From a virus, in the IMG/VR virus record IMGVR_UViG_3300009086_000103, positions 1-23,895 of that record: a stretch of DNA of 23,895 nt; one strand, given 5' to 3'. The notes beneath the pieces were generated by a model. The model was not told the origin of the DNA. It made no database searches and saw only the letters and a list, made by a program, of their open reading frames with translations. Each line of letters begins with the position of its first letter. The first letter of the stretch is position 1. Position numbers and translations under genes: made by a program. Shown piece after piece: positions 1,708 to 9,106 of the stretch.

Positions 1708-2568
1708 TCAAAAGTCTCCGATATCGTTCATAAGATTTCTCAATCTTTTATTTATAAAGTAATTTAGCAGTTTACTCCTGTCACCTTTTGGGGGCATCCT
1801 ATACTCTTCTAGAATCCTACCTGTCAGTTCTTCTGGAATACACTCTAAATCAATTAGTGTTTTGTTTCGTTGATAGTTACGCATCATCTCTTCATTGAAA
1901 ACATCTTCTGGTTCATGTTCAATCCAACCAGCAATCTTTTTCTTTGACATAGGTTTCTGTCGCATCTCATCTACGAATGTATTGTCTGGCGATAAGAAGT
2001 TTGGTATACCATCACTCCTATCACCCTTTAACACATGTTCCTTAATATATATATTCGGGTCAATATCCTTAATAAACTTTTTAAGAACAGGTGAATATTG
2101 TTTTACAAAGTTGTGTTTTTGCAACTGTATGAAATCTTTATCACCAGATAATATTAAGATGTGTTCGAATTCATTCGGTGTCTTAGATATATGTTGACAT
2201 ATGACTGCAATACAATCATCTGCCTCAGCACCTTCCACTTCAATAACTTTGTAGGGGAAAGTCTCACGAATTTCATCACGAATAGCATTAAGTGTCTCAA
2301 AGATTGTATTCCAATCTAAGTCTGACTTAGCCCTATCCTTCTTACGGTTTGATTTGTAGTTGGGGAAGTATTCTCTTCTCCAATACTTTTTGCTATCATA
2401 ACAAAGTACAAGTTCACCAAACGCCTCTGAAAACTTTGAACGGTACATCCGTAAAGAATTCAAAACCATATGACGAACTAAGTCCTCATCGACTTGCTTG
2501 TTCTTTGACTGATTTATTTGTACCATCAGATTACTGATAGTAACTTGGTTCATATCCACTAGAATCAT
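1708..2568 (-). CDS. rnh: RNase H / 5'-3' exonuclease, T4 Rnh type (FEN/PIN family)
   Basis: This 286-aa enzyme is predicted to remove RNA primers from lagging-strand fragments. Its length is close to T4 RNase H (305 aa). Metal-binding acidic residues of the FEN-like nuclease family are visible in order: Asp5 in ILVDMNQ, the EGAEADDC block at 112-119, SGDKDFIQL at 141-149, and GDRSDGIPN at 182-190 (the helix-hairpin-helix/H3TH region). The N-terminal arch segment contains YFPNYKSNRKKDR. The ATG at 2568 has only a weak Shine-Dalgarno sequence. Upstream lie both a sigma70-type promoter (2594-2622) and a late-type TATAAATA box (2582-2589), so the gene may be expressed in two phases. It shares a transcript with the DUF6433-like and endolysin genes. 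Confidence 0.9.
   Translation of the reverse strand: MILVDMNQVTISNLMVQINQSKNKQVDEDLVRHMVLNSLRMYRSKFSEAFGELVLCYDSKKYWRREYFPNYKSNRKKDRAKSDLDWNTIFETLNAIRDEIRETFPYKVIEVEGAEADDCIAVICQHISKTPNEFEHILILSGDKDFIQLQKHNFVKQYSPVLKKFIKDIDPNIYIKEHVLKGDRSDGIPNFLSPDNTFVDEMRQKPMSKKKIAGWIEHEPEDVFNEEMMRNYQRNKTLIDLECIPEELTGRILEEYRMPPKGDRSKLLNYFINKRLRNLMNDIGDF
1749..1756 (-). promoter_or_regulatory. T4-type late promoter box TATAAATA upstream of the 1250-1705 gene
   Basis: This is an exact match to the T4 late promoter octamer on the minus strand. It lies inside the 3' end of rnh, about 44 bp upstream of the next start codon at 1705 and in the right orientation to serve the conserved hypothetical gene and the endolysin. 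The assignment rests on the match and its position. Confidence 0.6.
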
Positions 2569-7768: not shown

Positions 7769-7987
7769 TTAGTAGTCCCAACCACCTCTAGGTACAGTTT
7801 TACCCATTGCAATGCTCTTGATATCTCCACGACATATACCCATGTCACTAAGTTCTCTGTCAGTCAATGAATGCAGTTCTCTGTATGCTTTCTTGTCCAT
7901 CTTTGGAGTGATAGCATCTCTAAAGTTTGTATACAAGTCTGCGACTATATCACAGAATGCACAATATGTTGCTGTAATTGTTACCAT
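7769..7987 (-). CDS. DUF1127-type small protein with N-terminal C-x2-C-D motif, 72 aa
   Basis: Residues about 37-62 (AYRELHSLTDRELSDMGICR, then GDIKSIA) match the DUF1127 (YjiS-like) pattern common in Alphaproteobacteria. There, small DUF1127 proteins have been linked to RNA binding and phosphate or carbon regulation. The N-terminal half is unusual for that family: CAFCDIV (Cys9, Cys12, Asp13), then an amphipathic stretch. The ATG at 7987 has GGGGAGC upstream and overlaps the previous gene by 7 nt. It is last of three adjacent genes with C-x2-C-D and is followed by a terminator. A regulatory role on host RNA is inference. Confidence 0.8.
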   Translation of the reverse strand: MVTITATYCAFCDIVADLYTNFRDAITPKMDKKAYRELHSLTDRELSDMGICRGDIKSIAMGKTVPRGGWDY

Positions 7988-8115
7988 GTTGATGCTCCCC
8001 ACATTATAAGTGCAGGCAATACTAGTGGAAATGTTACAAGGAATAACCCCTCAACAATATCACAGAACCTACACACCTTTTCGTTCTCTCTCAGTTTCAT
8101 TATCATTTCACTCAT
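7981..8115 (-). CDS. Tiny membrane protein with C-x2-C-D motif, 44 aa
   Basis: The product starts MSEMIMKLRENEKV, has CRFCDIV (Cys15, Cys18, Asp19), then a hydrophobic span (GLFLVTFPLVLPALIMWG). The ATG at 8115 has GGAG upstream and overlaps the previous TGA (ATGA). A longer upstream frame is not supported. It shares the C-x2-C-D-I-V signature with the 7769-7987 protein. No family is recognised. The membrane span is a clear hydrophobic run. Confidence 0.72.
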   Translation of the reverse strand: MSEMIMKLRENEKVCRFCDIVEGLFLVTFPLVLPALIMWGASTW

Positions 8116-8312
8116 TTCTTGATCTCCATCATTAATTTTTTCGCTTCTGCATGATATCCCATACGAGATAATTCTGATGCAGCTCTTGCTCGTCCAGCCG
8201 ACTCTGTTACTGATATGCATAATATCAATAGTCCTGTTAGTGCCTTACTAATCCAATCACAAACCGCACATGTATGTTTGTAACCTTGGTTTATTAATAA
8301 ACCGACTGACAT
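8112..8312 (-). CDS. Small protein with C-x2-C-D motif and DUF1127-like tail, 66 aa
   Basis: The N-terminal half has CAVCDWI (Cys15, Cys18, Asp19) followed by a hydrophobic stretch (LTGLLILCISV). The C-terminal half (RARAASELSRMGYHAEAKKL) resembles a variant tail of alphaproteobacterial DUF1127-like proteins, though less clearly than the 7769-7987 protein. The ATG at 8312 is preceded by AAAAGGAG. It is the first of three overlapping genes with the same cysteine motif, so the three probably arose by tandem duplication and divergence. Confidence 0.75.
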   Translation of the reverse strand: MSVGLLINQGYKHTCAVCDWISKALTGLLILCISVTESAGRARAASELSRMGYHAEAKKLMMEIKK

Positions 8313-8494: not shown

Positions 8495-8517
8495 AAAGGG
8501 ATGCATAGCATCCCCTT
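8495..8517 (-). terminator. Hairpin after the 15-codon frame, possible terminator or leader structure
   Basis: A 10-bp stem (8495-8504 with 8508-8517, one G-T pair) closes a 3-nt loop. Only a short interrupted T-stretch follows on the minus strand (ATCATTTT), so termination would be weak. It may control or stabilise the mRNA ahead of the 8315-8470 gene. Confidence 0.5.
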
Positions 8518-8518
8518 G

Positions 8519-8566
8519 TTAATTATTTTGAGCACTCAGGCTCGCTCTGTCCATTTGATTGGGCAT
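8519..8566 (-). CDS. Possible 15-codon micro-ORF
   Basis: The frame MPNQMDRASLSAQNN (ATG 8566, TAA 8519) has an excellent AAGGAG 9-10 nt upstream and is followed at once by the 8495-8517 hairpin. The length is too short for composition to help. The ribosome site and position between a candidate promoter and a hairpin suggest either a real micropeptide or a leader peptide acting on the genes downstream. Confidence 0.4.
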   Translation of the reverse strand: MPNQMDRASLSAQNN

Positions 8567-8636
8567 TTTTTGAATCTCCTTGGGGGTGGTTCACATTTAT
8601 TTAGGTAAATGATGCTGTCATATGTTACGAAAAGTA

Positions 8637-8677: not shown

Positions 8678-9106
8678 TTAGAACTTATTCTTGTACTCTT
8701 CTTTAAGTACCTTAGAGCTACCAACTCTAACATTGATGATACCATTATAGTACTCATCACTAAGCAATACTGCTCTGTCGAATTGTTCTTTAGCTTCTAG
8801 ATAACTGAGCATTCCTCTACTTTGACAGTAGTATAGAATCTCTCTGGTGAACTTGTCTTCACCAAGTCCTTTTACATCAGCATTCAAATGATCTGAAGAA
8901 CCCCAATAGGTTCTCCAATCACTTTCTTTACTTGAACGCCGTTTGTTCTTTCTTCCTTTTAGTGGGGGTCTTGTAACCTTGAAACGTGCTAGTTTCTTAC
9001 CAATGTACTTCTGTTCATTAGTAAGATTAGTTATCAGATATACAAAACCCTCACAGTCTTCTGGTAGGTTGTCAACAGGGTCGCCTTTATAAGTCCATTG
9101 TGACAT
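8678..9106 (-). CDS. GIY-YIG-like nuclease domain protein, 142 aa
   Basis: The N-terminal half shows the degenerate GIY-YIG pattern: GFVYLITN (20-27) for the GIY strand and KYIGKK (33-38) for YIG. A basic stretch with Arg residues follows (TRPPLKGRKNKRR). Glu104 in SYLEAKEQFD is a fit for the catalytic glutamate. A DNA-contacting tail is not obvious. Related stand-alone genes in T4-like phages are usually called homing endonucleases, and T4 has a homing endonuclease gene beside its nrd genes. Here the gene lies just after nrdB, consistent with that pattern, but a repair or other nuclease role is equally possible. The ATG shares a base with the preceding stop (TAATG). Confidence 0.7.
   Translation of the reverse strand: MSQWTYKGDPVDNLPEDCEGFVYLITNLTNEQKYIGKKLARFKVTRPPLKGRKNKRRSSKESDWRTYWGSSDHLNADVKGLGEDKFTREILYYCQSRGMLSYLEAKEQFDRAVLLSDEYYNGIINVRVGSSKVLKEEYKNKF

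Follow-up and report, generated by a model that had tools for sequence, protein, structure and literature searches.

Functions for bacterial DUF1127 proteins have been described only recently and comprise PhoR binding, RNA turnover and membrane-associated two-component control. Phosphate uptake is tuned by the DUF1127 proteins of Agrobacterium (SDP1-3) and by YjiS of E. coli, which bind the sensor kinase PhoR; the SDPs modelled on PhoR are positively charged (PMC12501420). In Salmonella, YjiS is associated with the inner membrane and pulls down SsrA/B, without binding RNA, and the RNA binding of CcaF1 has been tied to its DUF1127 arginines (PMC11707872). In Rhodobacter sphaeroides, the 71-aa DUF1127 protein CcaF1 is an RNA-binding protein that acts together with RNase E (PMC10253847). 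On the viral side, no study of phage DUF1127 proteins was found in the available parts of the literature on DUF1127 and phages.

Here we describe a cassette of tiny genes, one of them encoding a DUF1127 protein, in a viral DNA of 23,895 nucleotides from IMG/VR, hereafter called the window (the whole stretch that was analysed). Among annotated phages, matches over the length of the window were confined to the four Melnitz isolates, which infect OM43 methylotrophs and are T4-like members of the Kyanoviridae; the alignment covers 25 % of the window, at 80 % identity. The source of the cassette is a Melnitz-like, T4-like marine phage. Genes 44-46 of Melnitz EXVC044M (Methylophilales phage, MZ577097.1) correspond to ORF0, ORF1 and the DUF1127 gene in identical order, near nrdA/nrdB; their products share 60 % (ORF0), 44 % (ORF1) and 79 % (gene 46, ORF3) identity with the window proteins. 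Unlike the window, Melnitz is devoid of ORF2. Its gene 46 carries no annotation beyond “protein of unknown function DUF1127”, the counterparts of ORF0 and ORF1 are listed as hypothetical, and the accessible part of the Melnitz paper (PMC9004378) does not discuss genes 44-46. No described system with this gene set was found, in agreement with the initial annotation. ORF1 and ORF2 represent unnamed families; DUF1127 itself is already known.

Organization of the cassette

Three minus-strand reading frames of 66, 44 and 72 aa (ORF1 to ORF3) are present where the initial annotation had placed them (Table 1). ORF1 and ORF2 overlap by 4 nt (ATGA) and ORF2 and ORF3 by 7 nt; their starts are preceded by the Shine-Dalgarno sequences AAGGAG, TGGAG and GGGGAG, respectively. 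The initial annotation had also described these genes as coupled and bounded by a terminator. The overlaps and the terminator are indeed there, but the unit starts at least one gene earlier, with ORF0, whose end lies 2 nt from the start of ORF1. When compared with relatives, dN/dS amounts to 0.26-0.34 for ORF0, 0.13-0.22 for ORF1, 0.17-0.21 for ORF2 and 0.16-0.21 for ORF3. All four genes are under purifying selection, and the low values for ORF1, ORF2 and ORF3 indicate that these genes are real and evolve as proteins. The cassette is a conserved small-protein unit, ORF0-ORF1-(ORF2)-DUF1127, lying between terminator-like hairpins, and the same gene order is found in Melnitz and in many IMG/VR contigs.

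Neighbouring genes recognised from their translations include nrdA, nrdB with a glutaredoxin-like gene, primase and RNase H, as well as tRNAs and a GIY-YIG endonuclease of the SegE type (PF19835). The best PHROG of this endonuclease, phrog_447, is labelled “NAD synthetase” and looks misannotated. No sRNA family was matched beside the cassette.

Table 1. Coordinates of features in the window and in related loci
Feature	Sequence	Position	Strand	Remarks
Degenerate T4-type late-promoter-like box	window	8605-8598	minus	CCTAAATA
Micro-ORF	window	8519-8566	minus	MPNQMDRASLSAQNN, 15 aa; reading frame and AAGGAG Shine-Dalgarno only
Terminator/attenuator-like hairpin	window	8517-8495	minus	AAGGGGATGC-TAT-GCATCCCTTT; just 5' of ORF0, kept in many relatives
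ORF0	window	8470-8315	minus	51 aa, '[RK]TEY' protein; the unit's first complete gene
ORF1	window	8312-8112	minus	66 aa; CAVCDWI, residues 15-21
ORF2	window	8115-7981	minus	44 aa counted from an internal ATG; CRFCDIV, residues 15-21
ORF3	window	7987-7769	minus	72 aa; CAFCDIV, residues 9-15
Intrinsic terminator ending the unit	window	7738-7716	minus	AAGTCCTTG-TTTTG-CAAGGACTTTTTTTT
GIY-YIG endonuclease	window	8678-9106	minus	SegE type
Na+/Pi cotransporter	L015	6305-6787		PF02690; 3' of DUF1127 or DUF3563 cassette
Na+/Pi cotransporter	L024	1533-2015		as above
Na+/Pi cotransporter	L025	6305-6787		as above
Na+/Pi cotransporter	L059	4276-4761		as above
N-x-N-L-[KR]-G-W-V tail	L014	770-997		
N-x-N-L-[KR]-G-W-V tail	L026	1467-1649		
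N-x-N-L-[KR]-G-W-V tail	L027	5616-5810		
N-x-N-L-[KR]-G-W-V tail	L028	5762-6001		
N-x-N-L-[KR]-G-W-V tail	L029	5634-5822		
N-x-N-L-[KR]-G-W-V tail	L102			ORF0-like
N-x-N-L-[KR]-G-W-V tail	L112			
Plastocyanin/azurin-type copper protein	L026	about 2045-2485		PF00127

The encoded proteins

ORF3 matches PF06568 (DUF1127) with 32.4 bits (gathering cut-off 23.3, E 7.9e-8), which bears out the earlier assignment of the third gene; judged by this score, it is a true phage DUF1127 protein. The AlphaFold model, built on a 28-sequence alignment (mean pLDDT 75), predicts one N-terminal helix (residues 2-26) that holds C9 and C12, followed by three short helices that make up the DUF1127 part. A fold search against the PDB gave no match at E<=0.001, only weak HTH-like ones, and the best structural neighbours in BFVD are phage YjiS/DUF1127 proteins with weak E values of 0.04-0.09. 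No relatives of solved structure were found with the ORF3 and ORF1 profiles. ORF3 has the conserved C-terminal segment of the DUF1127/YjiS family (Agrobacterium SDP1-3, E. coli and Salmonella YjiS, Rhodobacter CcaF1) and a similar size. However, it differs from its bacterial counterparts in being phage-borne, in residing in a cassette with ORF0, ORF1 and ORF2, and in having a net charge of 0 instead of being basic.

A DUF1127-like tail had been ascribed to ORF1 as well. This assignment has to be rejected: ORF1 has no Pfam match and none of 35 family members matches PF06568 at E<=1. The family instead has a C-terminal signature of its own, G[RTY]ARAA[AS]EL[ST]R[MQ]GYHxEAKxLM, with the window form GRARAA.ELSRMGYH.EAK.LM. 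It comprises 353 IMG/VR loci, of which 80 were fetched, and 35 members were used in the tests. Since the ORF1 profile detected only two loci in the contigs of 84,980 bacterial and archaeal genomes, the family is essentially viral, and an origin of ORF1 from host genomes was rejected on the same grounds. The ORF1 model (AlphaFold, pLDDT 80) consists of one long helix enclosing C15 and C18 plus a short C-terminal helix; its matches in BFVD are long helices only. The mid-segment is membrane-like in 24 of the 35 members (19-residue Kyte-Doolittle mean >1.5) and only amphipathic in others (0.4-1.0); with hydrophobicity as low as 0.4, not all ORF1 members can be transmembrane.

The ORF2 family (22 loci) combines a charged N-terminus, the C-x2-C pair and a predicted transmembrane stretch. 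The maximal 19-residue Kyte-Doolittle mean is 2.22 for ORF2, within a family range of 2.11-2.75, and the protein is predicted to be a single-pass membrane micro-protein. The hydrophobic or amphipathic stretch that had been noticed after the cysteine motif is thus present, being of the membrane type in ORF2 and in many ORF1 members. ORF2 has no match in Pfam, DUF1127 included, and neither ORF0, ORF1 nor ORF2 matches a curated family; defence and counter-defence libraries gave no match for the cassette proteins.

The cysteine-pair module

The pattern C..C[DEN] within the first 25 aa is recovered by residue shuffles with p = 0.0027, 0.0031 and 0.0038 for ORF1, ORF2 and ORF3, respectively. The shared cysteine motif is more than chance. 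It had been described as C-x2-C-D. The cysteine pair is both repeated and conserved (30/35 ORF1, 9/9 ORF2 and 16/28 DUF1127 homologues), but the aspartate is not, as it follows the second cysteine in only 13/30, 3/9 and 11/16 of the pair-bearing members. Nine diverse ORF2 members retain the two cysteines without exception, followed by D or N. Homologues without the pair occur in L014, L026, L027, L029 and L132. A search of 299 genomes with the ORF3 protein and of 398 genomes with PF06568 yielded bacterial DUF1127 ORFs, and none of the 58 that were examined has C-x2-C; in this sample, C-x2-C on DUF1127 is therefore a phage-side addition.

ORF1 and ORF3 resemble each other beyond the cysteines. 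Their N-termini are alike with a column-shuffle p of 0.001-0.014, from a shuffle that does not keep helical periodicity, and hhalign gives probabilities of 73 and 96, the latter possibly helped by a common C-terminal tail. In both AlphaFold models C-x2-C lies inside the N-terminal helix. Moreover, the adjacent ORF1 and DUF1127 genes of one relative (L102) begin almost identically (MTTQTLTTYYCKICD / MTTQTLTTYYCQFCD). Given this resemblance and the near-identical starts, it is likely that ORF1 and ORF3 share an N-terminal module. For ORF2, with hhalign probabilities of 1-47 against ORF1/ORF3, the case for a shared module is weak.

The initial annotation implied that the cysteine pairs would be conserved together in the partner proteins, which does not hold. 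For ORF1 and the neighbouring DUF1127 protein, the pair is found in both in 9 cases, in ORF1 only in 17, in DUF1127 only in 3 and in neither in 3 (Fisher p 0.65). Strict co-conservation of the three pairs was rejected on this count, and the lack of co-variation argues against a metal site shared between ORF1 and DUF1127. The zinc hook of Rad50 is of the C-x2-C dimer type, and by analogy one C-x2-C per chain could form an inter-chain tetracysteine site. However, there is no homology to Rad50, and here C-x2-C lies inside a helix and not at a hairpin tip.

Variation of the cassette among phages

ORF0, which precedes ORF1 in Melnitz and in nearly all relatives, and ORF1 itself are nearly constant, whereas the content after ORF1 varies. 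This slot can hold a DUF1127 gene with C-x2-C (Melnitz type), ORF2 plus DUF1127 (window type), ORF2 without DUF1127 (L043, L045), a DUF3563-like protein (L059, L061, L062, L079, L081) or another protein of 44-45 aa (L064, L069). The DUF3563-like protein (43-64 aa), which is absent from the cassette of the window, fills in related phages the place that DUF1127 has here; its match to PF12086 (DUF3563) is shown for L061, two of three tested members scoring below the gathering cut-off. In one group of relatives a cysteine-free DUF1127 gene lies upstream of ORF1, and ORF2 occurs without ORF1 or DUF1127 in L125, L128 and L129. The Sinorhizobium phage phiM12 has a DUF1127 protein with neither ORF1 nor the cysteine pair; single homologues of this kind, which the initial annotation took as speaking against its three-gene system, thus exist for DUF1127 and in part for ORF1. 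Since the content after ORF1 varies and ORF2 or DUF1127 occur elsewhere without ORF1, the set of three genes represents one of several arrangements of a cassette with exchangeable parts, not a fixed system. An obligate three-protein complex is not supported by these data: Melnitz and many relatives do without ORF2, which stands alone elsewhere, the slot after ORF1 is interchangeable and the cysteine pairs of ORF1 and DUF1127 are not associated.

Some further features were observed in the relatives. A tail of the form N-x-N-L-[KR]-G-W-V is common to otherwise unlike small phage proteins (DUF1127, DUF3563-like, ORF0-like and one ORF1), and the similar tails NPNLRGSV and NENLRGWN end two DUF1127 proteins of one Rhodobacteraceae genome (hosts L133, L147). 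This tail could be a transferable tag for targeting or stability. In L054 (offset +193 from ORF1) and L106 (offset +370), a tiny protein beginning MMFKKFLKAMEYRSYCMSIRQLRDMGEFTKADEISEFK... is encoded beside the cassette and contains a segment (QLRDMG...A..I) that resembles the C-terminal signature of ORF1. The copper protein of L026, which has an apparent signal peptide, is encoded just 3' of the DUF1127 gene.

Leader region and expression

The sequence NATAAATA is the late promoter consensus of marine T4-like phages (PMC2984593). Most close relatives have NATAAATA/TATAAATA at the position of the window's CCTAAATA, the late box NATAAATA lying about 270-310 nt 5' of ORF1. Among distinct loci, 25 of 45 contain NATAAATA within 500 nt 5' of ORF1, against 8.4 expected, and late expression of the cassette is therefore likely. 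An exact TATAAATA was sought before the cassette in the window and is absent, only CCTAAATA being present.

The leader (8495-8605, minus strand) contains a late-promoter-like box, a micro-ORF and a hairpin, an attenuator-like layout that recurs in relatives. These have other micro-ORFs of 14-25 aa in the same slot, for example MWPYTEEE... peptides of 19-25 aa.

A tentative function at the host inner membrane

Because ORF3 is a phage version of DUF1127, the cassette probably acts late in infection to adjust a regulatory or membrane process of the host. Our preferred reading, to which we give roughly one chance in three (0.35), is a membrane-docked modulation of a host inner-membrane regulator, for which we infer the location, the cysteine chemistry, the partners and the effect. 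The C-x2-C segments would serve as short helices, hydrophobic or amphipathic, by which the proteins dock at the inner membrane, and the cysteines may stabilise homo- or hetero-oligomers through disulfide or metal. Late in infection, the DUF1127 part would bind and tune this regulator, for which a PhoR-type sensor kinase is the most likely candidate, with a change in phosphate uptake as one possible outcome. Instead of being fixed subunits, ORF1 and, in phages that have it, ORF2 would be partners that can be exchanged or would serve as alternative adaptors.

A link to phosphate is suggested by three related lineages (L015, L023/L024/L025 and L059), in which a gene for a Na+/Pi cotransporter (PF02690, E 3e-16) lies directly 3' of the cassette. 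This neighbourhood is suggestive; in the window itself no Na+/Pi gene lies 3' of the cassette. The idea that the cotransporter belongs to the cassette transcript is weakened by terminator-like hairpins located before the Na+/Pi gene in L015 and L059. Against an interaction with PhoR, ORF3 with its net charge of 0 is less basic than the positively charged SDPs, and a late role at the membrane has to contend with the degenerate promoter box of the window, the weak similarity of the ORF2 module and the low hydrophobicity of some ORF1 members.

A role in RNA metabolism appears rather unlikely, although ORF3 shares both its size and its domain with CcaF1, and interference with host RNA decay is known from T4-like phages. 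ORF3 would then be a CcaF1-like RNA-binding protein that alters the processing or turnover of host (or phage) RNA with RNase E, ORF1 and ORF2 tethering it to a membrane-bound degradosome. This reading is not favoured by the net neutrality of ORF3, since the binding of CcaF1 is tied to its DUF1127 arginines, nor by YjiS, which shows no RNA binding (PMC11707872); the lack of an sRNA family match beside the cassette also speaks against it. It is improbable that the genes serve superinfection exclusion or lysis timing, i.e., that they encode late membrane peptides changing the envelope in the manner of Imm, Sp or holin-antiholin systems, with DUF1127 as an accessory. The predicted late promoter and the hydrophobicity of ORF1 and ORF2 would fit, as would the modular exchange of small genes, which is typical of such accessory loci, but no homology to known exclusion, holin or defence families was found in Pfam, PHROGs, PADLOC or NCBIfam.

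Two further explanations concern the cysteines themselves. The repeated C-x2-C could be convergent or minor, arising by drift in independent hydrophobic helices that have no shared function. The weak profile similarity of ORF2 and the loss of the pair in L014, L026, L027, L029 and L132 agree with this, but retention of both cysteines in 9/9 ORF2 and 30/35 ORF1 members despite their divergence, together with the shared module evident from the N-terminal identity of ORF1 and DUF1127 in L102, makes it an unlikely explanation. At the other extreme, ORF1 to ORF3 might assemble into a metal- or redox-switched hetero-complex, as the initial annotation proposed with the suggestion that it could divert a host DUF1127 pathway. 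A single C-x2-C from each protein would then enter a common Zn or Fe-S site, similar to a zinc hook, or a disulfide relay. The conservation of the pair in all three families, the translational coupling and the proximity of nrdA, nrdB and a glutaredoxin-like gene are in its favour. Nevertheless, we regard such a complex as distinctly improbable: the ORF1 and DUF1127 pairs do not co-vary (9/17/3/3), Melnitz lacks ORF2, which in L125, L128 and L129 occurs on its own, the ORF1 pair is kept even when a DUF3563-like protein devoid of the pair comes next, and each protein offers only two conserved ligands.

Beyond the preferred reading of membrane-docked modulation lies a broader one, which we consider unlikely. 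In it, marine T4-like phages would have at their disposal a set of exchangeable membrane micro-proteins that build on a common helical docking module with C-x2-C. DUF1127, the ORF1 domain, DUF3563 and ORF2 would be its interchangeable effectors, and the set would reprogram the small-protein regulatory network of the host (DUF1127/DUF3563, e.g., phosphate sensing) late in infection.

Significance

The ORF1 family, a nameless viral family with more than 350 IMG/VR loci, is frequently adjacent to DUF1127 or DUF3563 genes, which constitutes a testable lead. A conserved phage DUF1127 protein, equipped with an N-terminal module and partner genes of its own, would give an independent handle on the role of DUF1127. 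As the cassette is carried by abundant ocean phages, it would also help to understand how host regulation is rewired by phages that infect streamlined marine bacteria.
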